Part shown: one piece after another, positions 25,007-54,034 of the stretch
Layout: every line of letters starts with the position of its first letter
Numbering within the stretch: position 1 is the stretch's first letter
NCBI RefSeq assembly: GCF_000003815.2
Contig: NC_049987.1
Location: 21,274,187 to 21,338,186, forward strand
Source: Branchiostoma floridae
Lineage: Eukaryota; Chordata; Leptocardii; Amphioxiformes; Branchiostomatidae
Direction of reading: 5' to 3'
DNA: 64,000 bases
The notes under the pieces: generated by a model
What the model was told of the DNA's origin: nothing
What the model saw: only the letters and a program-made list of their open reading frames with translations
Database searches by the model: none
Translations under genes and position numbers: made by a program

Positions 25007-25444
25007 TCAGTCTCCCGGTTCCTCCACCCTCCCCGGATTTACCCACCCCCCAAACGCCTTCTCCAGTTCCACGGCCACCGCCAGGGTCATGTGATCATTG
25101 TAGGGCAGGGCCACGACCTGTAACCCCAGGGGCACGCCCTCTGACCCCAGCCCCAGGGGAACCTGGGTAACCGGGAAACCCAGGACGTTAAAAATCCCGG
25201 TGTACGCAAAGTTAAAGGGGGTGAGGAGGGGTGCGTTGTGTTTGGGAGCAGGCTTGGGGTGCGAGGGGTAGAACAGGATCCCCTTCTCTCCCAGCATGTT
25301 CTCAAACTCTGTCTTGAGGTTGGCACACATCTTGATAAAGTTCTTGTTCTGCTCGGTGGTCAGCTGGGTCACCTTCTCAGTCATCCCCAGGCCGATGGCT
25401 GGTAGGGTGTGCTCCGACTTCCCAAACATCCACTTTACAAACTC
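25007..25444 (-). CDS. FAAH2: FAAH2-like terminal exon G
   Basis: 438 nt with the stop TGA at 25009-25007. Acceptor TTATCCCACAG before GAGTTTGTAAAGTGG. It encodes EFVKWMFGKSEHTLPAIGLG, a helical stretch, ILFYPSHPKPAPKHNAPLLT, PFNFAYTGIFNVLGFPVTQV, and the C-terminal PLGLQVVALPYNDHMTLAVA and FGGWVNPG blocks, which are close to vertebrate FAAH2. A truncated upstream copy of its start lies at 25490-25592. Confidence 0.93.
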   Translation of the reverse strand, partial: EFVKWMFGKSEHTLPAIGLGMTEKVTQLTTEQNKNFIKMCANLKTEFENMLGEKGILFYPSHPKPAPKHNAPLLTPFNFAYTGIFNVLGFPVTQVPLGLGSEGVPLGLQVVALPYNDHMTLAVAVELEKAFGGWVNPGRVEEPGD

Positions 25445-28400
25445 CTGTGGGATAAAAACAACAGGAAAATAGTACACTTTAGTTCATAACTCAGTCATCC
25501 CCAGGCCGATGGCTGGTAGGGTGTGCTCTGACTTCCCGAACATCCACTTAACAAACTCCTGCAGAATAACACAACAGGAAAATGGCTGGGTAAAGTGTTT
25601 TCTCCTAAACCCAACAGTACATACTTCATAGCCATGATCTTCCTCAGGCAGCACAAGTGACACATAATTCCGGCACATAGATGGCACATACATTGTAGTC
25701 CATTAAAACATTGGCCAGTCATCAACTGTGATTGTGTTGAAGGAACCTTACATTTGTATATACCTTGAGGAAAAGACACTCAAATGCTTAAGTTTCAAAC
25801 CATGTTCTAGATGATGGGACTTGAACCCGTGATGCATGGTTTAAGTCACTATGTGTCTATCCACAATGATGCAAGTGGAAACAATGGACCGATCCTGTCA
25901 AACGCCATATCGAACAGATAGAACTCCCTATTCTATATCGAACACCTCCATCAAAAACTGCCCCCATTTGGACAAAAATAGCTATTTTTGGCGGAGGTGT
26001 TCGAAATAGAACCATGATCGAGTAGGGGGCGGGGTTTTGGGATCGGTCCATTCCCTGTCGTTGAAAATAAGACCTTATAAAATTATATGCATTTCTGAGA
26101 CCAGTCCTTACCTTATATGGGTTGACAGGGTTACTCTCATTGTGCGACATGAGCTCACAGAAGGTTTGGTTGTCAGCTGACTCTGACATCATCGCCGTCC
26201 ATATTTGGAATGAGTACTTCAACTTCTCCATCTTCACCTCCTGAACTTTGACCCCCAGCTCCTTCTCCACATGGGTCACCACCTGCAAGGTCACAAAGTG
26301 TTTATTGTAATGTTGTTTCCATTATATGTTTTGTAACAGTATGATGATGAATGATGATGGTAAACATTCTTTCATCTTGTTTTTGATGTGTGTGGAAAGA
26401 ATGATGATGGTGTCACATTCCTTCAGCTTTTGATACCAGTGCATTGCTATACAGTAAACCTGTGTGTCCTGTCCTAGTGACCAACTAATACATAAGGACC
26501 CAATGACCTGTCTATAGTGATCACCTGTCCACATAGAGCACATTTTTTATGAGTGGTCTTCTTGGGCAGCTTTGACTGTATGTGCATGATGCAAAATATT
26601 GATGTCATTGTTGCTGTCCAAAGAGACAGCAGTCAACACTTCCCAATAGTCTTTCCACTTTTGCCTTGTTTATCATTACCTCTAAGAACATGTCCCCAAA
26701 TCACAAAGAAAATCTAAAATAGTATGCAATTTCTTTCTTCTGGCTTTGTCTTTCATACCGGGTAGTATCAAGTAAGTTTCAAGTCGAATTCTACTTTTTA
26801 TTCCCTTTCCTTGGCTTTGTCAGAAAGAAGAACTGGTATCTCATATCAGCATGACACTGGACTTCTGCCACTTGGACACTTACAGCAGCTCACATTCACA
26901 TTGAACAGGAACAACACTTCCTCTTTTTTACATTAAGCCAAAGCCAAAGAAAATGATACAGTACACTATCAAAATAATTTAAGTTTCACAAGGTGGGTAA
27001 AAACAGAACCACTCTATGTTACATTAACGGTCAAAAACAATTCAAGTTGCACAGTTGGAGAGTGGTGCAGGTCGAACAGACAGTAGACTTTTTCACCTCG
27101 TCTTAGATCAGGGAACTTGGAATTCCTTGAACTATCTCAACATTAATGTCTCTGTGACCTTGTGTCTGAGGTGCTTATCAGGACAGGAGAAGCTAAACTT
27201 AGAAGTAAGTCTCCTTTTATACTTCCTCATTTTAGTCTCAAACTTATTAGTGCATTTGAAGGCATGTCTGAGAACTAATAGTATTGTCTTGTTTATACCC
27301 GTCAATTTGATTTCATAATGAATGTAGTTTTAATGCCATTTCCCTGGCAAGCAAGTAAGTAAGAGTTTATGTTTGCTAAAAACAACTAATAATCCAGTAA
27401 ACTTGAAGTACACTGTTTTTGTAGATATAATATTCTTCCTTAACTGTTACACCCCTATATGTTCCGACACTCCTTAGTGCTTGGACACCCCTTGGACACC
27501 TGTATGTTATGACATCCCTACATGTATGTTCCAACACCTAACCCTAACATAGAAATTGGGGTAGAGGTATCGGAACATAGGGGCATCAGATCTTTTAAAA
27601 AATATAGGGGTGTTGGAACATAGGGAAGATGGAACATAGTCATGTTGGAACATAGGGGGATAAGAACTTAGGAAGATCAGATCACATTCTTTCAATTTTA
27701 TTCTCTTTTTTTATCAGACTCTGCAAAGTCAATGTGACTGAAGCTATAGGTAGCAGCTAATCTGTATCGACAAGAGGCAAACTACTGTGGACAATCTCTG
27801 GATACTAGTCTGTGACTGTTTGTACTGTGACCCAGGTGAGACTGTCCATTTGCAAATGTATTGAAAGATATATCATGTATTAGGTCTTGAGGTAAACACA
27901 GAATCTAAATGTTTTGAGTTCAAATCCATGGCAGGCTTCACTGTGTTTTGTGCTCTTGGGAAAGGCACTTTGTACCTCCCTCCTTGCTTTTTTGTAGAAA
28001 TTTTTATTTGTCCATACATGTTCAAAGTCTACAACCTCTTTGATACGTACCTGTATATACGTAGTGCTAAGATATGGTTGCTGAAAGTGTATTTTACTTG
28101 AGAATACCGATATCCTGAATCAAGTCTCAATCATGACAATATGTCCGACTGGCTGGACGTAATCTGCTTTTCCAGGCAACATGTCCGCCAAGCTGAAGAG
28201 ACTGCTGGTTCTGCTGCTGATCATCCTGAAGGAAACTGGACTGACCACACCCTGCAGCAGCAGCTGTTCATCATCCTGTAACTGTGGAAGTAGGGGCCTC
28301 AACAGTGTTCCTCAGTTTTTGCCTATAAGCATCACTTATCTTACCTTGTCTGACAATGAAATCACAACCGTGAGGCAGTATGACTTTACGAGGTATAAAG

Positions 28401-40400: not shown

Positions 40401-43400
40401 AGGACGAAAGCTGGCTAGAACCCTGGATAAGGTGCTTCGCAACCATCTAAAAAGCAAGACTTCTAATGTTCAGTGTTCAGTGAAATAACTAAATGAAATT
40501 GTCTGCAAAGACATTCACTAGAGGTCAATACCCTCAGACACCACAGGTGACCAGGTACGGTCAAAACATTTCTAGTTAATTCCAGTCGTTACATTAGAAA
40601 AGGTTTTGGTGATTTCGTTAACCGGATTAACAGTGTTAACGAGCTATAAAAATCATCTAGTTTCTGCTCTGAGACTACTATAAAAGGTTAAGGCTTCAAG
40701 ATTCATTGAGACACATTTGTGAAAAGTTGACATAACAGGCAACTATCACCATTTCAAGATGTCCACCTGGAGGCCATACTGTAGTAGTTGTAAAGTTGAC
40801 TAAAATCCACAAATTTTTAGTGGATTGTTCTTGATTCTGTGTACTGTAAATGCAGAAATGTTTGCGGTGGTTTTATATTTGCGGTGGCCACTTCACCGCA
40901 AACTTAAAACGAACGCGAATATTTTTCCCTTATAGTTTTTGTCCACAGGCTATGGCGCTAACGCGAACTTTACACCACCGTGAAAACTACGCTTTCCCGC
41001 TATCGTAAAATTAAATCCCTGCGAACTTAAATGCATTTACAGTACTAGATAGGCAAAGGACAAAGTACTTAATAAATAACCCAGTCAACTCTTAGAGAAC
41101 ACAAATCTGGACAAAAATACAGTACCCTGGTTGTTGTCAAGGATGAGAGGAACATGCAAGGCCAAAAAACAGTTCCAACCAAGTTTGACAAAGGGTGAGT
41201 AAACTTACATGGCCTGATCAGAAAAAAAGAAAAGTCTCTCCAAGAGGCAGTGGATTATCTAAGCTGCAGTTTCCACACAAATCAACAGGTAGCGCTGCAG
41301 AGTGGACCATAAAATGAAGTTTCCTGTAACAGTTGCAGATCGGGACCTACAATATTTACTTTGATGATCTTGCTGACTGTGATGTACATGTTAGCAAACC
41401 TCAAACACAAAGAACCAGTAGATAGTTGTGTTAGACTACATGTATTTTGCAGTAGTGACCATAGTCCAGTGATAAGAGAGACAGAGCCACTGGGCCAAGA
41501 AGCTGTGAGTTCAAATCCCGGCTGTGTTGCACAACTGGCATAATGCATGCTACAAGAAAGGGTTGGAGTCTTTAGGATGGGAGGTTAAGCCAATTGGTTA
41601 TTTGCCTGACAAGTGTTTATTGTGCAAGAGCTAGAGGAATTTCCCCAGCACAACAAGCCTGATATGGTGCAGTCTGCCTAAACACCTCAAACGACCTTAA
41701 ACGGCTTAAATGTATCCAGAGCGCCACACAAGGTGGTTGCCCCATGTACACTGCATATCAAATCCGTTAGAGGCTGTTTGTGGTGTTTAGATTCAATATA
41801 TAGTGTCTCTCTTCTCTGTCATAACCAGTGGAATTGCAGCTCTTCAGTAAGTTAGACTGATATGAGATCACTTTCACTCACCATCTTCTGCGCCTGCTTG
41901 AGCTCAGGGTCGACTGCGGTGCAGAGCCAGGACCCGCCGTCATCCTCGATACTGTAGAAGTTCAGCGCCTTCAGGTCCACCTGCGTGGTACAGAATAACA
42001 GACAAGCTTGTAAATGCAGCAAGAAAGTATACCTTTAACTAGCCTGGTAACCATACCATCGGGTGCTTGCTGTTAACTCTACAGTGCTGTAGGGGTTACA
42101 AGCCGACCCGTCCAGGTAATTAGCACAGGCCCGGGCAATTTTTACAGTGTTGGGTTTTAAAGCTAATTTTAACCGCATTTCTATTTGCTTTGATTATGAA
42201 AATTATTTGCATCTACTGGTAATTATGTTAACCTTTACATAAGCTTCAATTTACATACAATCCTCTTTCAAAGTCCAGCACAAAAATATGCCTGGGCAAG
42301 ATCAACATTAGTAGACAATAGTTGTCAGATCAGGAAAAAAGGTGTGCTATTACCGGTAATGACTTTGTACAGTGAAAGCTGAAATCTGATCTGTGTGCTA
42401 ACCAATTAGCCCATGGACACACCTACCATTCAGAGGATGACAACCAAAACTGTTACCAAGACAGGGCGAACTTCACTGGCTTGCTAGTGAAAATACAAAA
42501 TGGCGACTGCACAATCAAGTTTAACAATCGAGGAAGATGTGACCTGCACCATCTGCCTGGAGATGTTCACCAGGCCCAAAATGCTGCCCTGTCAGCACAC
42601 CTTCTGTCAGGAGTGTCTACAGGTCCTTGCAGCAAAGGAGGCAACCTTTGAGTGTCCATACTGTCGTCTGCCAGTTAACCTGCCATCTGAAGGGGTTGAA
42701 GGTTTGCCTGACAACCGTCTGATTGCAAGTCTGTGTGAGAGACTAAAAAAACAGGAACTGTCAGAAGAAACAAGGGAAGAATTCGAAGGAAACAGGTGCA
42801 GCTTCCACCCCTCTCAGCAAGTACAGCTCTATTGTAAACCATGCAATTTGCCTGTCTGTGAATTGTGCTTAGAAGAGACTCATGATAGTCACCTCACAAC
42901 CACCATTGTAAGGGGTGCAAAGGATAGGAAACCTAAAATCCAGGCCTTGATCAAGGATGGGAGGAACATTATGGAAACTTACAGTGATTTGAGCAAACAA
43001 GAGGAAGCCCTGAATGAGCAGAAACAGCAGACAGACAGAAGTATCAATCTGGCTTGTAACCAAATGGTGCAGAAACTTATGCAGAGAAGAGACCACCTCT
43101 TGTCTGAATCTGAACAAAATCACATCAAGACCCTAGAAAAAATACAGAGTGGAAGAGTTTTGAGGAAAGAACTGTCAGATGCCTGCGATCAAGCAGAACT
43201 GGCAATGGAGCATGGGGGAATCAGACTTCTTAGGCAGGAAAACATATTGACAAAAGTAGTTGGAAAGCACCAACTTGCTGGAAAAGCAGCACCAACTCCT
43301 GTACAAGCCCAACCTGCTGTCTTTCAGCCCACAGACACCCCAGTACCAATATTGGGACATGTGACTATTCCGTCTCCCCCATCTGCATCTAGCAACACTG

Positions 43401-46400
43401 CAACAAGGGAAACAGGTCAGGCTGTGAAGCACATATATCAAAACAGAAAGTTTACTGGTACACAGGGACCAAAAATAGATGAGTACAACAATCCAACTGG
43501 TATTGCAGTGTCAGAAGAAGGGGAGATTTTTGTAGCAGATCAGAAGAACCGTAGAATCCAAGTCATCACCCTGCACCAGGATGGTTTATCATCAGGACGT
43601 CAGTTCCCAACAGTGCTACCAGATGGTCAGAAGATGGCACCTCATGATATAGCCATAGACAGTGAGGAGAACCTGTGGGTTGTCGGGGGTGTAAATTCAG
43701 CTAACTTTGCTGTGCAGTACAACAAGCAGGGTATCTGGGTACTGAGGATGATTGAGCTACAGTACACAAGGTGGATAAGAGGAATTGCATTGGACACCAG
43801 AAGGAACCACATCCTCATCACACAAACCACAGGAGAAAAGGACGACATGCATGGTGAAGTGCTGGTGTTCACACCTGAAGGGGTGCTTCTTAAGACTGTC
43901 GGTGCAAAGGATCATGGAAAATGGAAGAAACTGAGACAGCTAGTGGGTCCTGGGGGTGGGTACCGGAGGATGAAGCACCCACTGTACATCACTGTGGATA
44001 GGGATGGGAACATTCTTGTGTCAGACTGTGGCAATAATTGTATCCATGTTTACAATGAGGACGGACAGTTTCTGTTCAAGTTTGGGGTAGGTCAGCTGCA
44101 GGATCCAAGAGGCATCTGCATAGACAAGTCAGGAAACATCATTGTGGCAGACAAGAAAAACAGACAATCAGAGCTGTTTAACAGTAAAGGAAAGTTCCTC
44201 CGATACATCAATGTTGTCAGCTGCAAACGGACTGCACTTATAGGCGAGGGGATTATATCTCTATATAGCCCCCTTGATGTAGATAAGGTGGTACCTCAGG
44301 CTGTTGCCGTTACAAAACAGGGCCATCTTGTGGTGACTGATTGTGTACATCACCAAGTTGTAATGTATGAAGGAGACATAGGCTGTAAATAAACCATAGA
44401 TTTTGTGCTGGTCTGGTTAAGTTTGTCTGCTTCCATGGTCTGTTATTCATATACATTTGTATTACTTGAATTCCCTGAAGTGGATTTGTTTGACAGAATG
44501 GTACCCAGACTAATTGAACATATTGTATGAAAATATTCTCACTTTGACTTTTAAGTAATTCATCCTGAAATACTTCATGTTTACACTTGTTGTGCATCTT
44601 TTTTCCAAAATGGAAACTTATGGGTGGTTGGCATGCTGTCCTGGATATGTCAAATCAATACAATTACATCAACCTCTTTCTGAAAATAATTTCACTTCTG
44701 ACTAGAGTTCTGCCTCTCATCGCTACATGTAGCCGATGCTACATATGGCAGCGAGAGGCAGAACTCTAGTCATGATGAGAAGCTCTGAGAAAGGTGTCTG
44801 AGTGACATCGAAATGTAAGCAAAAAAATGAGTACAAATAAGTTCTGTAAAAGAATTCTAATATATCCAATTACATCAACCCCTGTAATGACCAGTGACAG
44901 GTGCAAATGACACTTACTAATACATGTATTGATGCCTATCTGATGTTTTGTGTTTTATGTTTCACAAGTTTTTTCTACACTTTATCTTCTAGCTTTGATA
45001 TGGTTAAGTGTCAGGAGTTGATTAACCATTTTGTCTCTCAAGCTCTTAGATGTGTTCAGTAACAAGGATATTGGAAGTTTTGTGTCCATGTTGATTATCA
45101 AAAGAATTGTTAAGTTAACATACTCCAGGTGCATTTACATGTAGTTTCAACATTTAATTCAGTACAACAACTATTTCCATTTGTGTTAAGGGTTACTAGT
45201 AAATAGATTTTGACCTATCTTGACTTTGTGTCAGTAAATTTTTTGTTATGCTTTTGCCAAGTATAGATCTGTGAGAAGCCTAGATGGCATCCTCATGCAG
45301 AGTTACAAGTGCTGCACAGTCATGTCAGACATTTTTTGCAGCACTTTTAGTGTGTGACTTATTATCATTATGGTTTGTACCATCTGAGGAGGATGTAGAA
45401 TAAGTTTGCAAATGGTGAATTGATATTCAAGATAGCTGTAAAATAAATGCAAATTTCTATTAGACACCTAGTCTTTTTTATTTATCAATAAAGATTCCAG
45501 ATTCGCGACACACCGTTAGCCGTTGTTCCCAGTCTTAAAGTTCTTGGACTACACGTCCAAAAGGATCTGCGATGGGACAAACAGGTTGACCAAATGCAGA
45601 AGTCCTCGTCGAGGAAGCTCTACCTCCTCAAACGGCTAAGGAAGTTCGCGCTGTCATCAGCCGACTTGACAACTATTTACACAGGCTATATCAGGCCAAT
45701 TCTTGAATATGCGGCCCCTGCATGGTCACCTGGGCTGACACGCATCCAATCGGACAAGCTGGAGAGAATCCAGAAGCGAGCGTGCCGCATCATCTTAGGC
45801 AATGCCTACACAGGCTACCTTCCTGCACTGCAAACACTCGGACTTGTTACCCTAGCAGAAAGAAGGGAGCAGCTCTGTCTCAAGTTTGCACGGACATTGC
45901 TGAACTCGGAATACAGAGAATGGCTGCCTGCGACTAGATTCCAGATCTCGGGTCGAGCCACCAGAAATAGCCACAAATTGAACAGTCATATGTCCAGAAC
46001 AAACCGATATAGCAACTCACCGATTCCCTATATGAGCAATCTGCTCAATGCATACGGACCATAATTCCAGCATTAGTCATTACCATATCCACATCACCAA
46101 AATAATACTCCCCTGTTATCAGACAATCGTCCAGATGAAATTTTAACCTATGTATATATGTATATAGTACTTATTCCTACTAGTAACGTGTAATATTTGA
46201 CTGTTTTTATTGTGTGTTTCGAATGTAAATTGAATTCAATTCAGTGGTCACACTGCGAATTTTCAATAAAGTCATCATCATCATCATCAATGATCAACTT
46301 TATGGCTAGTAATTCTTTAAGATATTTTATGTATTGCCATGATCTCAAGTGTCCTACTTCAGTGCCTTTTTCCACATACAAAGTTGGTATCTTGACAACT

Positions 46401-49400
46401 CCACTTTGTAAGCAATGTCCTCTCCCAACCCAAGTATAAGCAATGTGACAGCAAGTGTGTATCTTATTTATGTCATTCCCGGGTCAGAAAACACTGTTCT
46501 AATTGCAGAAAACTACTCATAAAAAGGATAAAATTTGACACATTGTTTTAACCTGCACCAACAACTTTATTCTTTAAGAACATCAATTCGATAAAAATTC
46601 GAACAAAAGAACTCCGTTCACTTGCACCTGTGATTTCATAAATAGCAACGGCGGGCGTGGAGTGTGTTCTATTTAATCAATGGAAGCCTGTGTGAAACAA
46701 CTAAGAAGCCTGTGTGATACTGAAAATCATCATCCGGTCCGGAACACCTGTAGCAAATGTTATCGTGGCCCAGGTATGACATAATAGCCCCTATCTTTAC
46801 CCCACACATTTTGCAACATGTTTTTTATGAAAAAGAAAATCAGAGAACCAACAAATTAAAATTGGTGTGGCGTAAAACAATAACAAAAAAATAACACAAC
46901 AAACCTTCTCCTCCAGCTTGAGCTGTACAGTGCTGGGTCCCGCCATGATCTTCAGCATGGGCAGCAGGTCCTCCGCAAACCGGCACATCGGCCCCGTCAC
47001 CAGGAACTCTGTCCGCTGGCCCACCGCATTGGGGAACTGGCCCTGGTTAGACACAATTCCTGAAACATGGGGGGTACAGATATAGAGGGGTTGTAGCTGT
47101 GAGGTATACACATGTAAGGTGACAGGTCCTCTGCAAACCGGCACATCGGCCCCGTCACCAGGAACTCTGTCCGCTGGCCAACAGCGTTGGGGAACTGGCC
47201 CTGGTTCGACACAATACCTGAAACATGGAGGTACAGAGGGTTGGAAACTTTTTAAAGTACTTTGGTGAGGGCTTTAGAACAAGAACTGTGTCCTACAGCG
47301 TTGGGGAACTGACCCTGCAGCGCTGGTTCAACACAATACCTGAAACATGCATGGAGGGCCAATTGCAAACAGTGGGGTGGGAACTATTAAAAAGAATAAA
47401 CGAACAAATGGGAAACTGTGAAAAGAAAAAACAGAGAACTCTGTCCTCTGTCCCACAGCGTTGGAAAACTGACCCTGGTTTGACACAATACCTGAAACAT
47501 CGGGAGTCATACAGAGGGGTGGAAACTATGTTCAATCTGATGGGCAACAGTCCAAAGGGCTTGGGAAAATGGGAGGAATTAAGGTATATGGGAAACAGAG
47601 GAAAGAAACAAAAGAAGGGCAAAAAAATAACAAAACTAAGTAATAACTAAACTTGAAGTTAAATGATAAAAAAATAAACAAATCAAACTTAAGATTTATA
47701 AACCTTCAAATGACAGCATAGAGCAGCTTTAATTAATTGATAACTTACTTTTTAACTGGCAGTTGCATGGATTATGAATTTTGTCTTAAAACAATAATAC
47801 AGGTATCTGAATGAAATTTGGTCTGTTACGGTAATTGATATTTAAAAGATTTTATATGCCTTTTCCGTACACACACAAATTCCATTCAGGTCACATGACA
47901 GAGGCTTTGGGATACTTCAACGTGAGAAGGGTTTGAGGACTGACCGAAAGCTTACTGGTAAGCATTTGATATGTAACTTTGTGTACAGAAGTAGCACACA
48001 AAATCTTATCAAAAAGAAAACAATTCACATACTTAACACTCCCATACATAATTTCTTTTTATAAGCTTTACTTTTCCCCTCACCTGAGGTCGGCTTGTGC
48101 CCAAAGATGCCGTTGAAGAATGCTGGCATCCTGATGCTGCCCCCGATATCTGACCCCACCCCCATCACCGACCCCCCCGCAGCCAGGATGCACCCCTCTC
48201 CACCTGTAAAACATAGTTACATAAGACTTGTGTAAAGACTTTTTACACCTGACATCTGATGCTGCCCCCGATGTCTGACCCCACCCCCATCACGGACCCC
48301 CCTGCTGCCAGGATACACCCCTCCCCACCTGTGAAAGATACATACAACTCGTGTAAACTAAGGTAGCTTGGTAAAGGTACATCCGTAAATAGTTTCATCA
48401 GATTGGTAGATCAAATGAAAGTCTTCGTTACACAAAAATTTTAAAAGAAGGTTGTGTAACGAAGAAGACTTTGTTGAAGTAGGTAAAGGTAGTGCCATAG
48501 CCTTTCGTTAAGGTTGTTGGGGGAGTGGGTTGTGTCTAGGGCAGAGCCCATCCCTCTCCTTCCACCACCTTTTACCTATCCAACTGAAGTCAGGTACCGG
48601 GGATCTATTTTTACACCTGATAAATATACATCTTTAGATATCCCCGATGTCTGACCCCACCCCCCTCCCCCTGCTGCCAGGATGCGCCTCAAGACCTGTA
48701 GGGTACAGTAAACAAAAACTTTTAATGTGTAGATATCGTGGACGACATGTAAAGACTGAAATGTCAAATTGTACATCACAGTATTCCATTACGCCATTTA
48801 CATTCATATTCCCATAGTCCAAGAACTTAGACGAGACGAGTATACTGTATAGACTGATNNNNNNNNNNNNNNNNNNNNNNNNNNNNNNNNNNNNNNNNNN
48901 NNNNNNNNNNNNNNNNNNNNNNNNNNNNNNNNNNNNNNNNNNNNNNNNNNNNNNNNNNGGCATCTTTCATTTCGGATTCATCCACCAGGTAACATATACA
49001 AATGTAACACATCACATTAAAAACAGTGTGTTTGAATCAACAGTTCTCCAGTTCGGCATCTCTCAGACGTGCACAGTTTAGACATGCAGGACACATGTGA
49101 CCTCGCATAAAAATATCTAGCAGACGTTGCGCAGTGAAAAATCTTTTGGTTGCATTGCCAAACCAAATATGTAACAAAACAAACATATTCATTGTATTTA
49201 TCAAGCTTCCTCTTTTCTGCCAATTATGTCAAACTCTATATTGTTTGCGTATCTGTTGAAGTCATTTGAAAAGTCCCTTTCCAACATTTGCACTTACATC
49301 ATTCAAAGTTCCCTTAAGTAACAATTTAGCAGACATTGCAAAAATCATCACAATGCAAGGAAATGTTTCCATCTTCTCTATTTAAGCTTTAATATGAAAT

Positions 49401-52400
49401 ATTCATGATATCACATCTAATTTCACGGCTGACTAGCTTTATACCTACTATTGGGTGTGTCAACATTAGCCAAAGATACATATACGGATAGAATTTTCAA
49501 ACTGTGTTTGTTTGTGTGTTTGCTTTAATATGATTTATGATAAAAAACATTTAATTGCAAATGTTACTCTAGAGTTTCATCATCCTGTGAACTTCACCCT
49601 TGAACAGATGACATTGTTAGATAAAACCAAAAGGTCACATTGAATGCAAGTCAGCTACATTTAAACATTGCAATGCTGTGCAGAATAACATGCCAGACAG
49701 CATATTTTCAACTGGACGTTTTGCTTGTTTTGTGGCCTGGCCAAAGAAAGGCATAAAGTTACTAAATTCCAAAACAACAACTTCCTTCTTTGATGCTTAC
49801 TTGGCAAACAAACAACAAATACAGTAAATCATCTACGTGTCAGGTGACATGTTGCCATTGTGATCCCTGCACGTAACCAGTAACAAAAAAAAGTCCCTGG
49901 GTATTCCCCTTACACCTACCTAATCAACAGGACTGGCTCTGCTAACTTAAGTAAGGGGTAAGACAGCATTTCTCTCTGAGTGAAGTAAAAAAAAAACAAC
50001 TGAAGTTCACTGAATTTCTCAGAGACTCTCTATTGTTTCACATCTATGAAACTTATTTCACAATGATAAGAAAGGAAAAAACATTGATGACCTTATGGTT
50101 AAAGTAGAACATCTGCCCTTAGTACATCTTACACCCCATGTCAAACATGTACTCAACCAAAAAAATTCCCTGAATCCAGTATCTGTTTAGCGGAAAACAG
50201 GCAAGAGCTTTCTAACCGACCTTTTCCCTGACAGGATACATGCTACAAATTACGGTAAGTTCTTAAAGTTTCCTAACTTACTCAGTGGCAAATTTGATGA
50301 CTGCCTTTAACATTGATCACAGGTACAACTGAGGCCTCATATACATACATTGTGTACATGTAGCTTCATGTACATGTATGGGTCACAGAACAGACTAACT
50401 CAGGTATAATAAAGACTCAAAGTTCATACTTTGCCCTTAAAGTTTGTACGTTTTCTATCTTCAAATTTAGTCTGTGAAACTTGTGAAAAATGCAAGATTT
50501 GTGTGTTCAAAGTTTTCTGTGTCAAAACCAGCAGCACAGCATATAAATCATTGTATTCGTCAATAAAGCATCAAAACAGGCTGCTTTGTCCAACAAATGA
50601 TGTGTTGATTTTGTTCATAAACTCGGTGTCCAGCTATCTTTGCCTCAACATGTTAAAACTCTTAAATTCAACTTAAAAGTTAGTCCATACTGTACATAAC
50701 TTGGTGTCTGACTTCTTTGCTGGAATGAATGTGTCTATAAAAGTAAGTAAAAGCACATTGAAGTAAAATGCAAATTTTGTACAATCTGTTTAACATCTGT
50801 TTGACATTTTAGCACTTAGAACTCTAAATCCTTTTCTTGAATTTTAGCCATTCTTAATCACCACAATGCATAATTTTACATCTTCAAAAGTTTACCAGAC
50901 TGCCCATTAATCAAATTTACTTGAATGCCTTAATGAGAGTTTGCTGCTACTTAAGGTAAGATATGTGGAGTTTGGTATTAATTGTTTGGTTGACAGGCGT
51001 GGTGATGTTACCTCTCCTTTCCTGCATTTTAGTGCCATGAATCACTTGGGTGTGGTTACTCAAAGTTCCACCCCATGGCCACAAAATCTTAAAATTAAGA
51101 CAGTCACTGTAATAATACAGATCAGGTTTGCATCTATAGTAATTATAACATTAAGTAACTTTTTTGATAGTGTTTGCAGAAGTGACCACAAAATCCATTG
51201 ATGTTGAAACAGGAAGTTAGAGTTCTAATCCATCAGTCCCCTGATGAAATTGAAACAAAGTAAGTTTTGTTCAGTCTCCAGACGTTACGTTATCCGATCA
51301 TAAGGAAGTGACCTCAGCGTATCAAAACCAAAAAAACATTCTCACACTTCACTTCAATTAAGTCAAACCAACCGTTGTACTTTGAATTTGCCCTTTGACT
51401 TAGTTCATTTGTCTGAACATTTTAACTTATACAATGTAGTTGCTAGTGTCAAAGTACACTGAAATATCAAAGATTTTATTTTGATCATAAAGTTGAATAT
51501 GAAAAAAATCAACGGATCATACATATTTCCTTTTTATATCTTATTCTATTTAGCATTTACTGTATGTGCAACTACACACAAGAAGAACAGGAATATGACA
51601 TAGAAGCAAAGTTACGACCTGAAATTACAAACAATGTGAAAACTGCCTTAAAAACTATTATCAACAATAATGAGATGAAAAAGTTCCCAGCAGCTGTTAA
51701 GCTAATAGCACTTTTGACCTTGAGTAATCTTCCAAATATGGTATATGTTGCAAACAAGAACAGCATCAGAATGATTGGGTGAAGAACCCAAGCTTTCAGA
51801 TTGTTGCCGCATTGAGAAAACCTATGGGAGACCCCTACACCCCCCAAGACTGAAAAGAGGAACTTCTCAATTTATCTCTGAAACCCATGACGATAGGGAT
51901 TCCCCGTGGAAATTGAAAGATGACGTTAGACAAACACAAGAGACGGAAATGAAAGCATTTAGAATTGCGTGTTGTGATTGGTTGGTTGTTGCTAATGGCA
52001 ACCATTCAAATTCAGTCACAATGGTACAAAGTAAAACTGTTTGGGTCATAGTTTAATCAACAGTATTGTAATGATATTAGGATTTGGTCAAGTGGTTTCC
52101 TTGCCACTTTCAGTAATTCTACATAAGGCCTCTTATCTAAAAACTTAAAGGCAAACACCTACATATAAGAGTATAACAAGTTACGTCTTAGAGTATAATA
52201 AAAATGGTTATAATTTTGACCGCTTTTCTTGCTCTGTAGCACCACCTAGCAACACAAGTCTGTACTGCAGTAGAGGTAACTGGATACCTCCATGGCAACA
52301 ACCTTGAGCGACATTTCTTTTGAATAACACCTTACGTAAACATTAGTCACTGTGTCAATAGCAGGAAGTGAACAATAGTCTCAAGCTTCCCCTACTGAAC

Positions 52401-54034
52401 ACGTGGTGAATTTGCTAGAGTGATTTTACGAGGTAAGCCTAAGTTGAGTTCTTCTATGTGCTCCCCTGACCACAAACTATAAATGGGAACTGAAATATTC
52501 TTGACAAATAATGCTCAATAATCAATTTTCAAGCAGGATTTTCCATGAAAAAAAAGGAATTTTGTAAGTAGTTTGAAACATTGAAGTTGCAGCAAAAAGT
52601 GCAGCAATTTTGTTAGAAGGTTTATGTATTTTTTTTCACAAGAAAACAGGCCGCTAGTGATTTTGTAGTAATTGGGCAATGCAGTTTGCTACAACTTAAT
52701 GGCACCAACTATCCTTACTATGTTGAAGGTATTGTTTCTGGTCCAATAGGTATGGTTGGATTAGGATATAGGGATCGGGATTAGATCTATGCTTGAGTTT
52801 AGGATTAGAAGTTTCAAGGTTTAGGATCAGTATGTGGTTATATATTAATTACCTAAACTCCCTCCAACAATCCTTCCTGTACATGTGTTGTAGGCATTGT
52901 TTGTGGTGCGGTAGACGTTGTTGGGTTCAGATTACAGTTAGTAATAGGGATTTGGATTAGGATTGATTTAGGATTAGGGGTTTGAGAGGTTTAGGATGAG
53001 TTACAGTATGGTTAGTTACCTGAACTCCCTCCGACGATCCTTCCTGTGTTGTAGGCATTGTTTGTGGTGCCGTAGACGTTGTTGCTCGACTCGTACCACA
53101 TACAAAGCTCACTGCAGTTTGTCACAGCTAGCGGAATCGCGCCCGCCTGGCGGAGGTACGTCACCACGGTGGCGTCGCTCGTGGAAACGATGTCCTTCCT
53201 CGCTACCAGGCCTGATGTGTTGGGTAGTCCTGCCAGGGGGTAACCAAGGGATTTGTCAGGGTTACAAAAATATGTTGAAAAAATCTGACACAAAATGTCT
53301 CCTACTAGTCCTAGCCTGGATAACGGACCCCAGTACAATCTCAAAAAACAGCTATTCCGCACGATAGAGATAGAGATCGGGCTGGGGTCTGGTATATACG
53401 ATAAATGTCTCCCTTTTCCTTTAGTTTGTTGGACTTACATGTCTACTGTTCTTTACAGGTTGGAGATAACATTTGACTTGGCTGCAGATCGAGGGTGCCT
53501 AAACTTCTTCATTGGTAAGTATGCAGCTGCTATACAATGTTGTGTCAATGAATATGTTTAATGTGTTTGTGTGTCTATATGTGCCTGTTTGTGCAATGTA
53601 TATACAATATCTGTTACTAATTCTTATTAGGAAAAGCTTTAGGACAGTTGGAATTCATAACCACTTACAGTATCCTTACAACAAAAGATATAACTGAATG
53701 TCATCTGTGAAACAGCAGTGTTGATATTTTCAGTATCAGGACGGTATGTTAAATGCACAATGTCGCATTAATGTAATTGTAGTGGAGACATTGTTCAATA
53801 CAAAAAGGCCTCACCTTTTACTGTAAACGCCTCCTTGGCCGTGAAGGGCACGCCGAGAAGCGGCATACTCTCTACCGGATAGAGGTTGTTGGGATCGCCC
53901 GCGTCGAGCACGGTGTCGATGTCCCGCGCCTGTTCCTGCGCCTCCTCAAACCTGTCCGCCACCACCGCGTTGATGATGAAGTTGACATGTTGGATGCGAT
54001 CGATGTAGCTCTTGATAACTTCCTCACACTTCAC
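25007..54034 (-). CDS. FAAH2: Fatty-acid amide hydrolase 2-like amidase, seven exons, 5' end missing
   Basis: Gene-level entry; exons are 54034-53815, 53229-53020, 48203-48084, 47059-46905, 41980-41882, 26282-26112 and 25444-25007 (named A to G below). All junctions are GT-AG with matching phases (A/B, B/C and C/D phase 1; D/E, E/F and F/G phase 0), giving 1413 nt, 470 residues plus stop. Vertebrate FAAH2 is about 530 residues, so roughly 60 N-terminal residues (membrane segment region) are missing. Family knowledge: these serine hydrolases cleave fatty-acid amides such as anandamide and oleamide using a Ser-Ser-Lys triad. Seen here: the Lys in TAKEAF (exon A), the cis-Ser in GGSSGGEG (B/C junction), the nucleophile in GSDIGGSIR (C), and the C-terminal PFNFAYTG-type core (G). 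Introns measure 585, 4816, 1024, 4924, 15599 and 667 bp; the two largest after 4816 hold plus-strand genes. No exon upstream of A and no convincing poly(A) signal was found. Confidence 0.9.
25490..25592 (-). repeat. Truncated upstream copy of terminal exon G
   Basis: A tandem copy, offset 114 bp, of 25376-25478. It carries a good acceptor (GTTATTCTGCAG) and an open in-frame copy of EFVKWMFGKSEHTLPAIGLG followed by MTEL and a TGA. Splicing of exon F into this copy would end the protein about 120 residues early. It lies between exon F and true exon G, so splicing machinery meets it first. Confidence 0.85.
25750..25860 (-). mobile_element. tRNA-derived SINE fragment
   Basis: On the minus strand: CATGCATCACGGGTTCAAGT, CCCATCATCTAG (B box region) and TTGAGTGTCTTTTCCTCAAG, the same head-plus-body order as other SINEs in the window. 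Lies in the F-G intron. Confidence 0.5.
25883..26052. mobile_element. 170-bp palindromic MITE in the F-G intron of the FAAH2-like gene
   Basis: Terminal AATGGACCGATCC (25883-25895) and GGATCGGTCCATT (26040-26052) are perfect inverted repeats. Inner arms TCGAACACCTCC and GGAGGTGTTCGA flank the central palindrome AAAAATAGCTATTTTT. No clear target duplication. Confidence 0.8.
26112..26282 (-). CDS. FAAH2: FAAH2-like exon F
   Basis: 171 nt, phase 0 at both ends. Acceptor GACCTTGCAG, donor TATAAG/GTAAGG. It encodes VVTHVEKELGVKVQEVKMEK then LKYSFQIWTAMMS and ends NPVNPYK; family members have 'MKYSFQLWIAMMS' here. A palindromic MITE-like element lies just downstream in the F-G intron (25883-26052). 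Confidence 0.88.
27440..27690. repeat. CTATGTTCCRACACCCC foldback repeat upstream of LRR receptor 1
   Basis: Left arm repeats ACCCCTATATGTTCCGACAC-like units; the right arm repeats the reverse, TGTTGGAACATAGGG, several times. About 15-20-bp degenerate units. The family recurs at 29890-30660. Confidence 0.75.
27715..27834 (+). other. Untranslated 5' exon of LRR receptor 1 (3' boundary supported)
   Basis: Conservation with 32590-32719, upstream of the paralogue, covers AATGTGACTGAAGC, GCAGC..GTCTGT, the ACT(G)CxGA..ATxTC stretch and the end TGTGAYCCAG/GTGAGAC, a strong donor. The matching acceptor is TGCTTTTCCAG just before the ATG at 28181. No useful ORF spans it, so I read it as a noncoding first (or internal 5' UTR) exon. 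The 5' limit is uncertain. Confidence 0.6.
27885..27995 (+). mobile_element. tRNA-derived SINE fragment
   Basis: GAGTTCAAATCCATGGCAGG (B box) followed by GTGCTCTTGGGAAAGGCACT, matching the body of the SINE at 30051-30565. Lies in the 5' UTR intron of LRR receptor 1. Confidence 0.55.
28181..29866 (+). CDS. LRR type-I membrane receptor 1, single coding exon
   Basis: 561 residues. Hydrophobic signal peptide (about 1-23), cysteine-rich LRR N-cap (25-36, CxxxC...CNC), about eight LRRs (50-235) with LxxLxLxxNxI spacing, LRR C-cap (NPWQCDCRMLPF at 250-261, closing Cys near 277 and 299), a Ser/Thr/Pro-rich stalk (301-415), one transmembrane helix (about 430-451) and a basic-start cytoplasmic tail with Tyr503, 518, 540 (YQNV, a YxNx Grb2-type motif) and 556 (YETL). 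The ATG lies 5 bases after an acceptor-like TTTTCCAG, fed by an untranslated exon near 27.7-27.8 kb. It is nested antisense in the F-E intron of the FAAH2-like gene. The ligand is unknown; amphioxus-type LRR receptors are often immune or adhesion proteins, but nothing here decides that. It differs from its paralogue by one extra LRR and the long stalk. Confidence 0.9.
   Translation: MSAKLKRLLVLLLIILKETGLTTPCSSSCSSSCNCGSRGLNSVPQFLPISITYLTLSDNEITTVRQYDFTRYKALETLNLMYNQISSISSKAFYNATTIRKIRLYMNQLTSLRVHMFEGLENLQTLELRWNGMNNIEAGTFNSTPKLQTLDLSYNSISIIAADIFTNLPQFSSLDLSYNSISTIEADAFVNLPQFSSLDLSYNRMNTFPVGLFSNLTVSNIDIENNQIETLPPMAYDILASISTSNLGSNPWQCDCRMLPFKQKMTGSYLFEYTITCAGPGSFQGKSLLQDVNPEDLICVETTASPRPSTSSPVVQPGVSTSLLSTFSKTFSTTHNAVSTPGLSTVSPSPSDNVEKSTSTVQRSSTTLMTSVTHIADSTPSLSDPAKSSQGLPSTTPRPTSASTHVQPKLTEIKPGPSLVWFSLPSFLNGLLGAAVLLVGLFIICAIILTIRCIHKRRTREAPSSQNSTVSFANTNLPSAVTISGQVQTGQDRSSTATSTGGYSDVIPSQPGLRQNLYRTDEQGNQIPPPANGSGSRAGYQNVSAAAHGAVAPNHYETLMH
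29890..30665. repeat. CTATGTTCC foldback repeat in the LRR receptor 1 3' region, split by a SINE
   Basis: Left arm (29900-30040) repeats CCCTATGTTC..; right arm (30595-30660) reads GGAACATAAAGGTG and AACATATAGGGGCA. The SINE 30051-30565 interrupts it. Confidence 0.75.
30051..30565 (-). mobile_element. Full-length tRNA-derived SINE with 10-bp target duplication
   Basis: Flanked by perfect GTTCTGATAT repeats (30041-30050 and 30566-30575). Read on the minus strand it starts with a tRNA-like head: GTGGCACGATCGTCAGCGCG (A-box region) and GGGTTCGAATCC (B box), then a body with TTGTGCCCTTGGGAAAGGCA and ends (CAA)n-like (GCCAACAACAAC). It inserted into the CTATGTTC foldback repeat downstream of LRR receptor 1. 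Confidence 0.85.
31624..31629 (+). terminator. Poly(A) signal of LRR receptor 1
   Basis: AATAAA inside CCATCAATAAAGTTTCAGTC, with the equivalent TTATCAATAAAGTTTCTGTC after the paralogue at 35868-35873. Conservation in the two duplicated copies supports it. It implies a 3' UTR of about 1.8 kb including a SINE and the foldback repeat. Confidence 0.6.
31660..31868. mobile_element. Decayed MITE, TACTGTAAATGCA family
   Basis: GGCGCTACCACAACGTTTAA, TTTTCCCGCTACCGAGAAAT and ATCCCTGCAACTTAAAAACA follow the order seen in the right half of the 40842 copy, and GATGGCCGCTTAACTGCC resembles its left part. CpGs are largely decayed to TG/CA. Confidence 0.6.
32590..32719 (+). other. Untranslated 5' exon of LRR receptor 2
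   Basis: Counterpart of 27715-27834, ending GTGATCCAG/GTGAGACC at 32719. The acceptor is at 33456 before GCAAAATGAAG. The intron contains the assembly gap 32762-32861. No long ORF crosses it. Confidence 0.6.
32762..32861. other. Assembly gap (100 N)
   Basis: A run of exactly 100 N in the intron of LRR receptor 2. The round size suggests a placeholder of unknown true length. Confidence 0.98.
33025..33120 (+). repeat. Possible SINE body fragment
   Basis: AAAGTCAGGTACCCATTTGT then TTACACCTGGGTGAAGTGAG, a string typical of tRNA-SINE bodies; a related GTCAGGTACC..TTACACCTGA occurs at 48590-48622. No head is visible. Confidence 0.35.
33461..34864 (+). CDS. LRR type-I membrane receptor 2, paralogue of the gene at 28181
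   Basis: 467 residues from the ATG at 33461; the upstream ATG at 33413 lies before the acceptor TTTTGTTCAG and would be intronic. Signal peptide (1-18), cysteine-rich N-cap (21-32), LRRs (about 46-212), C-cap (NPWQCDCRMLPF at 225-236, later Cys at 252 and 274), a short linker, transmembrane helix (about 303-329) and a tail with EYEDI (Tyr392), GYEEM (Tyr416, a YxxM PI3K-type motif), VVYQNG (Tyr435, YxNx) and PHYYQPL. Ectodomain cap and signal sequence are very close to the first gene, but the tail differs in its motifs and the long Ser/Thr stalk is missing. Nested antisense in the same FAAH2-like intron. Predicted surface receptor, ligand unknown. Confidence 0.9.
   Translation: MKRLLVLLLITLKETGATTACSSISCSSTYCNCAAQGLNSVPQLLPTNMDYVILYGNEITALWQYDFLRYWHLLVLDLGYNQISSIDSEAFYNMTILYDLRLHGNQLTSLRVNMFAGLDNLEVLHLYNNDISSIEIGTFSSTPKLATLVLRQNSISAIAAGTLSNLSRFRSLDLSNNRINNFPVDLLANLSTLSHLDMENNQMETLLPMAYEIMTSVSTTNLGSNPWQCDCRMLPFRQRMTGYYFFEYSITCAGPGSFQGKSLLYDIFPEDLTCEPTTSSAHTNVTSLPYSMCGPDSLELKVLFLPVFLSAFLGVLAATLFVCAIFFAIRCTKKIRTRNTSSSTHVDPSAGEPSVVFTNTNTTATATIDIGGHGQTGQDNRVVGSNIVTGEYEDISRQSGSGSGHRQQALHSGQGYEEMAPSLPPRNAAGPQVVYQNGSDSEGAHSADAPHYYQPLRRNFRQCETAH
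35868..35873 (+). terminator. Poly(A) signal of LRR receptor 2
   Basis: AATAAA in TTTATCAATAAAGTTTCTGT, conserved in position with the signal at 31624. It gives a 3' UTR of about 1.0 kb. Confidence 0.6.
35959..35987. repeat. (ATC)n microsatellite
   Basis: CATCATCATCATCATCATCA just downstream of the LRR receptor 2 poly(A) region. Confidence 0.9.
35990..37610. other. Intron sequence (FAAH2-like F-E), no gene recognised
   Basis: CpG-poor intron with one 19-bp triple repeat. A short inverted pair flanks 36499-36628 (ACCCTTAAACTGCCA and TGGCAGTTTAAGGGTT), a likely small foldback element. Confidence 0.5.
36379..36435. repeat. 19-bp tandem repeat, three copies
   Basis: ATACACTGTTAGGACAGAC repeated three times without a mismatch. 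Confidence 0.95.
37616..39870 (-). mobile_element. 5'-truncated non-LTR retrotransposon with near-complete reverse transcriptase
   Basis: Minus-strand frame 39625-37952 (557 residues) carries the RT core: [77 protein letters not shown], the catalytic FADDTN and the thumb LGVLIDDRLTWKPHI, then the C-terminal YPYLIYCNIVWGNAY. An upstream frame (39855-39577) continues the linker (NPTPLSESTYKVYKNKLNH) in another phase, so there is about a one-base frameshift near 39660-39690. The endonuclease domain is absent. The 3' end is AATAAATAAACAAACAAGTC on the minus strand (about 37616). It sits in the F-E intron of the FAAH2-like gene in the gene's own orientation. It is probably no longer mobile. Confidence 0.9.
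40131..40425. mobile_element. Non-autonomous hAT-type MITE with 8-bp target duplication
   Basis: Terminal inverted repeat CAGTGTTCTAGCCAGCT (40131-40147) against AGCTGGCTAGAACCCTG (40409-40425), continuing weakly inward (CCGTC..GGATTTTG / CAAAATTCCGTC). Perfect 8-bp direct repeats GATAAGGT flank it at 40123-40130 and 40426-40433. An 8-bp duplication and CAG(T/G)G termini are typical of hAT transposons. No coding capacity. Confidence 0.88.
40842..41044. mobile_element. Palindromic MITE, TACTGTAAATGCA family
   Basis: TACTGTAAATGCA (40842-40854) is the exact reverse complement of the right end TGCATTTACAGTA (41032-41044). Internal arms TTTGCGGTGG.. and CACCGTGAAAAC.. also pair. Possible TA target duplication (TA/CTGTAAATG...CATTTACAG/TA). 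Family copies at 757-948 and about 31660-31868. Confidence 0.8.
41455..41790 (+). mobile_element. tRNA-derived SINE copy
   Basis: TCCAGTGATAAGAGAGACAG (A-box region) and GAGTTCAAATCCCGGCTGTG (B box) form a tRNA-like head; the body runs on through AGCCAATTGGTTATTTGCCT to about 41790. Lies in the F-E intron, 90 bp short of exon E. Confidence 0.6.
41882..41980 (-). CDS. FAAH2: FAAH2-like exon E
   Basis: 99 nt, phase 0 at both ends. Acceptor GTACCACGCAG, donor AAGATG/GTGAGTG. It encodes VDLKALNFYSIEDDGG, SWLCTAVDPELKQAQKM; family members have a comparable 'L.FY..E.DGGS' stretch after the catalytic domain block. No duplicated copy was seen beside it. It is the last exon before the large intron that holds both LRR genes. 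Confidence 0.85.
42500..44392 (+). CDS. TRIM-NHL type RING E3 ubiquitin ligase, intron-less coding region
   Basis: 630 residues. RING finger C3HC4 with C16, C19, C31, H33, C36, C39, C52, C55; B-box type 2 with C100, H103, C112, C115, C120, C123, H128, H131; coiled coil about 140-255; a Pro/Thr-rich linker (265-310); then NHL-type beta-propeller repeats (about 325-625) with recurring 'P.GIAV...G.I.VAD..N.RIQV' units. No filamin domain separates the coiled coil from the NHL repeats, so TRIM56/TRIM32-like or an expanded invertebrate group is more likely than TRIM2/3/71. Start context ACAAAATGGCG is favourable. Expected to ubiquitinate substrates recognised by the propeller; substrate unknown. 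Nested antisense in the E-D intron of the FAAH2-like gene; poly(A) signals at 45442 and 45487. Confidence 0.92.
   Translation: MATAQSSLTIEEDVTCTICLEMFTRPKMLPCQHTFCQECLQVLAAKEATFECPYCRLPVNLPSEGVEGLPDNRLIASLCERLKKQELSEETREEFEGNRCSFHPSQQVQLYCKPCNLPVCELCLEETHDSHLTTTIVRGAKDRKPKIQALIKDGRNIMETYSDLSKQEEALNEQKQQTDRSINLACNQMVQKLMQRRDHLLSESEQNHIKTLEKIQSGRVLRKELSDACDQAELAMEHGGIRLLRQENILTKVVGKHQLAGKAAPTPVQAQPAVFQPTDTPVPILGHVTIPSPPSASSNTATRETGQAVKHIYQNRKFTGTQGPKIDEYNNPTGIAVSEEGEIFVADQKNRRIQVITLHQDGLSSGRQFPTVLPDGQKMAPHDIAIDSEENLWVVGGVNSANFAVQYNKQGIWVLRMIELQYTRWIRGIALDTRRNHILITQTTGEKDDMHGEVLVFTPEGVLLKTVGAKDHGKWKKLRQLVGPGGGYRRMKHPLYITVDRDGNILVSDCGNNCIHVYNEDGQFLFKFGVGQLQDPRGICIDKSGNIIVADKKNRQSELFNSKGKFLRYINVVSCKRTALIGEGIISLYSPLDVDKVVPQAVAVTKQGHLVVTDCVHHQVVMYEGDIGCK
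44700..44771. other. Long hairpin in the 3' UTR of the TRIM-NHL gene
   Basis: Left arm 44700-44718 (GACTAGAGTTCTGCCTCTC) is perfectly complementary to 44753-44771 (GAGAGGCAGAACTCTAGTC). The inner arms (CGCTACATGTAG and CTACATATGGCAG) pair imperfectly, leaving about a 6-base loop CCGATG. Just downstream is TGATGAG...TGACATCGAAATGTAAGC, a layout reminiscent of Penelope-like retroelement ends, but this is only a resemblance. Confidence 0.8.
45487..45492 (+). terminator. Likely poly(A) signal of the TRIM-NHL gene
   Basis: AATAAA in TTTATTTATCAATAAAGATT, similar to the context of the LRR gene signals (ATCAATAAAG). A second AATAAA lies at 45442. A truncated LINE begins about 10-20 bases downstream. 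Confidence 0.5.
45505..46290 (+). mobile_element. 5'-truncated non-LTR retrotransposon (reverse-transcriptase C-terminal part)
   Basis: An open frame ending at 46064 encodes a typical LINE RT thumb and C-terminus: VLGLHVQKDLRWDKQVDQM, KLYLLKRLRKF, TIYTGYIRPILEYAAPAWSP and ERIQKRACRIILG. The frame is open from the left edge, where it is cut off. The 3' tail runs through AATAAAG(TCATCATCATCATCATCAA) at about 46265-46290. CpG-rich compared with its surroundings, consistent with a young insertion. CR1/Rex/L2-like class by motif; family not determined. Confidence 0.85.
46905..47059 (-). CDS. FAAH2: FAAH2-like exon D
   Basis: 155 nt, phase 1 in, phase 0 out. Acceptor CATGTTTCAG, donor GAGAAG/GTTTGT (a weak-looking donor). 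It encodes IVSNQGQFPNAVG, then VTGPMCRFAEDLLPMLKIMA and GPSTVQLKLEEK, which align with the family block after the nucleophile (family members have NKGQFP and TGPMCRYAEDL). Three truncated copies of the acceptor side lie upstream of it in the intron. Confidence 0.9.
47113..47219 (-). repeat. Truncated copy D2 of exon D with intact acceptor
   Basis: The acceptor TTTCAG lies before GTATTGTGTCGAACCAGG (exon start at 47217), 158 bp from the true exon start. The frame is intact through VSNQGQFPNAVGQRTEFLV and CRFAEDL, then departs (SPYMCIPHS). No matching donor is visible. The near-identity to exon D over about 100 bp marks this as a recent duplication. Confidence 0.85.
47278..47341 (-). repeat. 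Truncated copy D3 of exon D boundary
   Basis: The reverse strand reads TGTTTCAG/GTATTGTGTTGAACCAGC (start 47339), then GCAGGGTCAGTTCCCCAACG and CTGTAGGACACAGTTC. The match covers about 60 bp with a small insertion (GCGCTG) that breaks the NQGQF reading. It is offset 122 bp from D2. Confidence 0.75.
47432..47493 (-). repeat. Truncated copy D4 of exon D boundary
   Basis: The reverse strand reads TGTTTCAG/GTATTGTGTCAAACCAGG (start 47491), then GTCAGTTTTCCAACGCTG and GGGACAGAGGACAGAG. It is offset 152 bp from D3. The intervening sequence includes TTGCAAACAG and TGGGAACT-type strings also seen near D2 and D3, so the repeat unit includes intron. Confidence 0.75.
48084..48203 (-). CDS. FAAH2: FAAH2-like exon C (nucleophile Ser, amidase signature)
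   Basis: 120 nt, phase 1 at both ends. Acceptor ATGTTTTACAG, donor CCTCAG/GTGAGG. It encodes GEGCILAAGGSVMGVGSDIG then GSIRMPAFFNGIFGHKPTS, the centre of the amidase signature; the Ser of GGSIR is the nucleophile. Of the three acceptor-bearing copies of this exon, only this one is full length with a donor in frame with the next exon. It follows GGSSG of exon B without loss of frame. Confidence 0.93.
48252..48330 (-). repeat. Second, 3'-truncated copy of amidase-signature exon C
   Basis: A tandem copy offset 125 bp from the true exon. Its acceptor (ATCTTTCACAG, exon start at 48328) is intact, and the reading frame is open through GEGCILAAGG and GSDIGGSIR, including the nucleophile Ser. It then diverges and reaches a stop four codons on (RCQV, stop), although a GT follows CAG at 48252-48246. 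It could act as a decoy or cryptic exon, or be inert. The high identity to the true exon, including synonymous sites, suggests a recent copy. Confidence 0.85.
48620..48700 (-). repeat. Third, decayed copy of exon C boundary
   Basis: The reverse strand reads CCCTACAG/GTCTTGAG, then GCATCCTGGCAGCAGGGGG and GGGGTCAGACATCGGGG. The match to exon C is clear, but a deletion removes part of the VMGVG stretch and shifts the frame. The ACACCTGATAAATATA side matches the intron next to the second copy, so the same repeat unit is involved. Unrelated, SINE-like sequence (about 48360-48600) separates it from the second copy. Confidence 0.7.
48859..48958. other. Assembly gap (100 N)
   Basis: Exactly 100 N in the B-C intron of the FAAH2-like gene, about 160 bp beyond the third exon C copy. 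True length unknown. Confidence 0.98.
49000..52680. other. Intron sequence (FAAH2-like B-C), no gene recognised
   Basis: AT-rich and CpG-poor with short ORFs only. Confidence 0.5.
52684..52930 (-). repeat. Two decayed copies of the exon B 3' end with donor site
   Basis: On the plus strand, ACCTAAACTCCCTCCAACAA (52851-52870) and what follows match the end of exon B (from 53019), including GGCATTGTTTGTGGTGC and GTAGACGTTGTTG. The copied exon would end at 52853 followed by GTAATT, so a donor is retained; the offset to the true donor is 167 bp. A third, more diverged copy lies at about 52690-52750 (ATCCTTACTATGTTGAAGG and on). Between copies runs TTAGGATTAG-rich intron sequence. The copies lack the upstream part of the exon and any acceptor. 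Confidence 0.8.
53020..53229 (-). CDS. FAAH2: FAAH2-like exon B (cis-Ser)
   Basis: 210 nt, phase 1 at both ends. Acceptor CCCCTGGCAG, donor TTCAG/GTAACT. It encodes GLPNTSG, then the family-typical TNCSELCMWYESSNNVYG, and ends IVGGSSG where the amidase signature begins. The serine in GGSSG is the cis-Ser of the Ser-Ser-Lys triad. The 3' end of this exon together with its donor site is repeated, with decay, further into the intron (see 52684-52930). Confidence 0.9.
53815..54034 (-). CDS. FAAH2: FAAH2-like exon A (catalytic Lys)
   Basis: 220 nt. Acceptor TGATGCAG before GTGAAGTGTGAG, donor AAAG/GTGAGG. It begins in phase 0 with VKCEEVIKSYIDRI and ends VPFTAKEAFTVK plus the first base of a Gly codon. 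The Lys in TAKEAF is the expected triad Lys. The segment VNFIINAVVADRFEEAQEQA matches the alpha-helical region before the amidase core in family members. The exon is strikingly richer in G, C and CpG than the introns on both sides. The preceding coding exon should end in phase 0 and lie at a higher coordinate; I could not find it in the window. Confidence 0.88.

Follow-up and report, generated by a model that had tools for sequence, protein, structure and literature searches.

Mirage arrays at four exon edges of a lancelet amidase gene, with near-exclusively silent differences between the nearest copies and the complete exons

An amidase gene on the minus strand of a 64,000-nucleotide stretch of Branchiostoma floridae DNA (NC_049987.1, positions 21,274,187 to 21,338,186; hereafter the window) carries eight partial tandem copies at 4 of its 14 known exon edges, as recovered by self-comparison and pairwise alignment. 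Edge copies of this class are already known in lancelets as "mirages", and this gene is a further, dense member of the class, with four edges affected. What appears to be new here, and may offer a clue to their origin, is that the differences between the nearest (proximal) copies and the true exons are near-exclusively silent. We propose, with a probability of about 0.4, that these are mirage arrays in which the proximal copies and the complete exons trace back to two versions of the gene, both functional, that had diverged from each other.

The seven exons found in the window join, with AG/GT borders, into a single uninterrupted reading frame that encodes 470 residues and ends in a stop, and the joined protein covers the full Pfam Amidase profile (266.3 bits). 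Its best matches among solved structures (E up to 1e-10) include bacterial-type amidases and urethanases (best 3e-50) as well as fatty-acid amide hydrolase 1 (2e-33); the gene is here called FAAH2-like. A 5' exon sought inside the window gave two weak pattern matches, which were rejected. The further exon was found outside, about 18 kb upstream of exon A and with an in-frame end before a GTAAGT donor, and therefore the last 10 kb of the window lie inside intron 1. The exons in the window are the following:

53815..54034, minus strand: exon A (AG/GT borders, frame, Pfam Amidase 24.8 bits alone); no edge copy found
53020..53229, minus strand: exon B, complete, 210 bases (Pfam Amidase 73.4 bits with flanks, borders, frame)
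48084..48203, minus strand: exon C, complete, 120 bases (Pfam Amidase 54.3 bits in the correct frame, borders)
46905..47059, minus strand: exon D, complete, 155 bases (borders, frame; alone without a Pfam match, within the joined-protein match)
41882..41980, minus strand: exon E (family pattern, borders, frame); no edge copy found
26112..26282, minus strand: exon F (borders, frame); no edge copy found
25007..25444, minus strand: exon G with the stop codon, complete, 438 bases (Pfam Amidase 33.6 bits with flank, borders, stop)

The introns of this gene also house other features. Within an amidase intron lie two single-frame LRR genes, at 28163-29863 and at 33398-34861 on the opposite (plus) strand, that are related to each other, with about 76-79% identity over their aligned parts, and a reverse transcriptase open frame (37955-39697, minus strand; Pfam RVT_1, 115 bits) is located in the E-F intron. 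The D-E intron contains a TRIM-like open frame (42491-44389, plus strand) in which RING, B-box and NHL repeats are encoded. In the F-G intron, nested inverted repeats at 25883-26052, with outer arms of 13 perfect bases and inner arms of 27 bases at 89%, resemble a small inverted-repeat element.

The preliminary description had reported truncated copies at exons B, C, D and G, and self-comparison together with alignment bears this out. As it had claimed, the C, D and G arrays repeat the acceptor and the start of the exon, the B array repeats the end of the exon and the donor, and the complete exon is always single, all eight copies being truncated and in register. The span that it assigned to these duplications, 46905..53229, does hold exons B, C and D, but exon G lies outside it. 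Three copies belong to the D acceptor, two to the C acceptor, one to the G acceptor (all upstream of their exons) and two to the B donor (downstream of exon B):

52781..52923, minus strand: copy B1, exon B end, donor and intron start (alignment to the true donor side, GT retained)
52705..52742, minus strand: copy B2, decayed exon B end without GT (38 bases aligned, 7 mismatches)
48249..48357, minus strand: copy C1, acceptor and exon C start with a donor-like end (alignment, AG retained)
48642..48700, minus strand: copy C2, decayed acceptor and exon C start (alignment, AG retained)
47123..47237, minus strand: copy D1, acceptor and 95 bases of exon D (93% identity, AG retained)
47289..47349, minus strand: copy D2, acceptor and 43 bases, with an 8-base insertion (alignment)
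47436..47520, minus strand: copy D3, acceptor and 56 bases (alignment)
25490..25583, minus strand: copy G1, acceptor and 69 bases of exon G (about 92% identity, AG retained)

The proximal copies D1, C1, G1 and B1 have 95, 72-80, 69 and 65 exonic bases, respectively, in common with their exons, besides 20-67 aligned intronic bases, and lie at offsets of 114-165 bases. They do not abut the true unit, from which they are separated by unaligned spacers of 42 (D), 12 (C), 19 (G) and 28 (B) bases, with weak homology extending into the 42 bases at exon D.

D1 differs from exon D by 6 synonymous and 0 nonsynonymous changes, C1 from exon C by 6 and 0 (6 and 1 including its uncertain tail), G1 from exon G by 3 and 0, and B1 from exon B by 2 and 2. 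When the four proximal copies are pooled and the short terminal block of C1 is left out, the totals are 17 synonymous against 2 nonsynonymous differences over 227 nonsynonymous and 74 synonymous sites (dS 0.23, dN 0.009), a small sample of 19 differences over four pairs. If each copy had been made from the adjacent exon and had been without function from the outset, about 60% of the differences would be expected to be nonsynonymous; the pooled counts depart from this expectation with P 1e-5, and with P 5e-5 to 3e-3 when the C1 tail is included (17 and 3). Across nine settings of transition and CpG bias, P for the silent excess ranged from 1e-5 to 9e-4, and such a bias was rejected as its source, P being at most 9e-4 throughout; letting the true lineage evolve four times faster at silent sites gave P 0.009. 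Tested singly for the codon rhythm, D1 gave P 0.013, C1 0.004 and G1 0.11, while B1 by itself (2 and 2) is compatible with a dead copy. No three-base rhythm was found in 15 non-gene pairs and one LRR repeat, and among background pairs (the 28 best taken, the 23 with at least 3 mismatches tested) 2 of 23 fell at P < 0.05 and 0 of 23 at P < 0.01. The intron parts of the proximal pairs differ at 23 of 141 bases; therefore, these pairs are not simply young.

Among the outer copies, D2 and D3 jointly show 15 synonymous and 2 nonsynonymous differences, although they have changes in common and are not independent, and C2 and B2 together show 6 and 9, as expected of dead copies. The proximal copies compare with all outer copies at Fisher P 0.096, and with C2 and B2 only at 0.0035. 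Taken together, the proximal copies speak against pure slippage followed by drift; C2 and B2 do not. In a limited check of the open-access literature, we found no account of the codon pattern of mirage copies.

Comparisons of three sequences at a time indicate which of them diverged. In the trios D0/D1/D3 and C0/C1/C2, the copies share a state that the complete exon lacks at 6 silent sites, and the proximal copy differs from both other sequences at 2 sites, also silent; the trio D0/D1/D2 gives 4 and 0, respectively. The silent variants that mark the copies are the codons GGT, AAC and GCT in array D and GCA, GCA and GAC in array C. Against equal neutral rates, this asymmetry has P 0.001-0.002, assuming 28-34 silent sites. 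Indeed, because a dead copy is free to change at all sites and the exon only at silent ones, equal rates would predict the reverse asymmetry. The trio pattern thus suggests that in arrays C and D the proximal copies are little changed and that the divergent sequence, the stranger, is the complete exon. The simplest reading is that copy and complete exon come from different functional versions, joined recently. Exchange within the array was also considered; in a small simulation (200 haplotypes, 3000 generations, 6 runs at each of 6 rates), it failed to reproduce the low dN/dS, giving 0.36-0.54 for the proximal copies vs about 0.04 observed.

The sequence shows that short tandem duplications placed a single splice site, together with a portion of an exon, in the adjoining intron. 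In the reading that we favour, the exon now beside each of the four proximal copies was probably not its template. The other version of the gene could be an old allele or a paralogue no longer found, and the two may have been united by repair copying from a homologue or by imprecise unequal exchange, followed by end joining, which would also explain why unaligned spacers are present. Among the outer copies, C2 and B2, and in part also D2 and D3, would be older and decaying. Published mirages whose copy number varies between haplotypes fit this reading. Against this reading, the reported heterozygosity of lancelets is 3.2-4.2%, or 4.39% SNPs (PMC12862219, PMC4284660), and an allele would have to differ at 17 of 101 third positions and 23 of 141 intron bases, far over 3.2-4.4%; an allele as source would need about four times the reported heterozygosity. 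A search of the whole assembly for a second exon C locus found none (the query matched its own locus and C2, and one candidate region was scored, a search that was not exhaustive), which speaks against a surviving close paralogue. As a tentative and somewhat doubtful proposal, mirages may be scars left where two functional gene versions that had diverged were joined by template switching or imprecise exchange; the proximal copy would keep the silent-site signature of the donor, and the complete exon would be the other version.

Short tandem duplication is common in this genome. Local duplications of at least 40 bits at offsets of 40-700 number 37 in the window vs 0 in each of 20 dinucleotide shuffles, so that the copies are not chance similarities; a strict set without the matches at 10.7-11.1, 21.5-22.3 and 28.6-28.9 kb reduces the 37 to 26. 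The window has 19 duplication loci (2.97 per 10 kb) vs 33 in 20 stretches of 10 kb from the same contig (200 kb, 1.65 per 10 kb), in which duplications cover on average 4.7% (range 0-24%). Edge-spanning duplications are also enriched: in the window, 4 of 13 edges are spanned, with P 0.026 (all) and 0.014 (strict) when the edges are slid along the window and 0.022 and 0.012, respectively, under independent placement; in the gene plus intron 1, 4 of 14 edges are spanned (P 0.019 by sliding, 0.013-0.015 by placement), and at least 4 loci touch an edge with P 0.003-0.004. Nevertheless, we regard the excess as modest, because the tests are post hoc, the gene having been chosen for its edge copies, and because copies of conserved exons remain recognisable longer. 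That edge repeats are commoner than expected, a condition on which the preliminary description rested, therefore stands (P 0.012-0.026), but only as a moderate, post hoc enrichment. The further step, from recurrence at four exons to an edge-directed mechanism, finds no support, as intron 1 entirely contains 7 of the gene's 12 strict duplication loci and duplications of the same size occur elsewhere (10 of the 15 pairs outside 25,007-54,034 have offsets of 76-205 bases, the size class of the edge copies).

Other short local duplications in the window are located at 1506-2164, 11793-12431, 15840-16064, 17879-18250, 58438-58777 and 60819-61741, with best pairs of 74-91% identity and no codon rhythm. 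A 15-base minisatellite of about 45 copies occupies 21561-22220, and a 19-base perfect tandem repeat of 3.1 copies is intronic at 36379-36436. Ten stretches, mostly under or beside other duplications, were searched for unrecognised Pfam exons, with none in nine of them and two weak sub-cut-off matches in one.

The abundance of same-size duplications in the window, in intron 1 and in the 20 background stretches is what ordinary minisatellite duplication would lead one to expect. In this alternative, stretches of 100-200 bases are duplicated at any position by slippage or unequal exchange. Duplicates that fall within an exon are eliminated, and edge copies survive, because one complete exon remains, and then drift. 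The dead-copy-like counts of C2 and B2 (9 nonsynonymous, 6 synonymous) and the moderate edge enrichment agree with it, but the nonsynonymous deficit of the proximal copies, the divergence of the complete exon and the gap between simulated and observed dN/dS do not, and we find it doubtful. The codon-type differences could also be those of alleles, if the assembly switched haplotype at exon edges and the overlapping part remained as a spurious tandem copy; the outer copies would then be real mirages. Such a switch would give one proximal copy per edge with coding-type differences, in an animal of 3.2-4.4% heterozygosity; a 100-base assembly gap is situated close to array C, assemblies are known to suffer from false duplications (PMC9516828), and a globin mirage was misassembled in a draft (PMC3087553). 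Nevertheless, the amount of difference (17 of 101 third positions) well exceeds average heterozygosity, array D holds four distinct sequences, a haplotype switch does not produce outer copies, and the PGBD5 repeats were upheld by resequencing (PMC3902484). We consider this artefact unlikely for the proximal copies in general, and more conceivable for exon G, which has one copy only.

The splice signals bear on whether the copies are in use, either as alternative or poison splice sites tuning expression or as incipient exons in the formation of a new intron. AG is retained in six of six acceptor copies, GT is retained in B1 (and lost in B2), few amino-acid changes have accumulated in the proximal copies, and intron gain from mirages has been proposed for globins (PMC3087553). 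However, each of the six acceptor copies, read to the true donor or stop, runs into a premature stop, as does read-through past the exon B donor; therefore, coding constraint on the copies is not expected. Moreover, D2 has an 8-base insertion, and C2 and B2 are decaying. The six acceptor copies, followed to the true donor or stop (with internal splice pairs searched non-exhaustively), yield no frame-keeping new intron, and the truncation of all eight copies, of which C1 alone has a donor-like end (TCAG/GTGTAA), sets them apart from a whole-exon tandem duplication, in which each copy would have both splice sites. By computation, only the exon with both splice sites is predicted to work and the copies would be dead decoys, which makes their use very improbable.

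It has been proposed that mirages supply the material for new introns, and the mechanism of their formation was termed unclear in 2010 (PMC3087553). A gene with four of them permits a codon-position test of origin without experiment, repeatable on all published mirages. If the copies came from diverged homologues, they would be a record of haplotype exchange in a highly polymorphic animal; in the case of haplotype switches, many false exon fragments may be present in lancelet assemblies. If the scar reading is true, the origin of a mirage would be readable from sequence alone, and mirages would mark past exchanges between haplotypes.

The arrays described here agree with known mirages in consisting of minisatellite-like copies that span exon-intron edges (eight copies, four edges), in copying either edge type (acceptor in C, D and G, donor in B) and in unit length (114-165 bases vs published lengths of 10-72, 60, 108 and 150-160 bp). 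The edge duplications of the globin genes BflGb6 and BflGb9 were called mirages with a term taken from Adh3 (PMC3087553), and the preliminary description was right in pointing to an amphioxus Adh precedent. As in this amidase gene, the globin mirages have an acceptor edge (Gb6) or a donor-side edge (Gb9) in tandem with a single complete exon, in units of 150-160 and 157 bp whose degenerate copies include splice signals, but one edge per gene is described in that paper as opposed to the four here (PMC3087553). BflGb6 has 6 and 3 units on two haplotypes, and RT-PCR suggests normal splicing of the globin mirages (PMC3087553); the amidase gene is known here from the sequence of one assembly. The Adh3 mirages (Canestro et al. 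2002, via PMC3087553) are likewise a minisatellite over exon-intron edges, in contrast with smaller units (10-72 bp) and somatic instability. Lancelet PGBD5, in a report that also mentions a troponin C mirage (PMC3902484), differs in that its copy number was compared between two assemblies and found to vary, whereas a single assembly is considered here. Nevertheless, PGBD5 resembles the amidase gene in having, within a single gene, imperfect repeats across 5' as well as 3' splice sites, which in PGBD5 measure 60 and 108 bp and affect two exons (PMC3902484).
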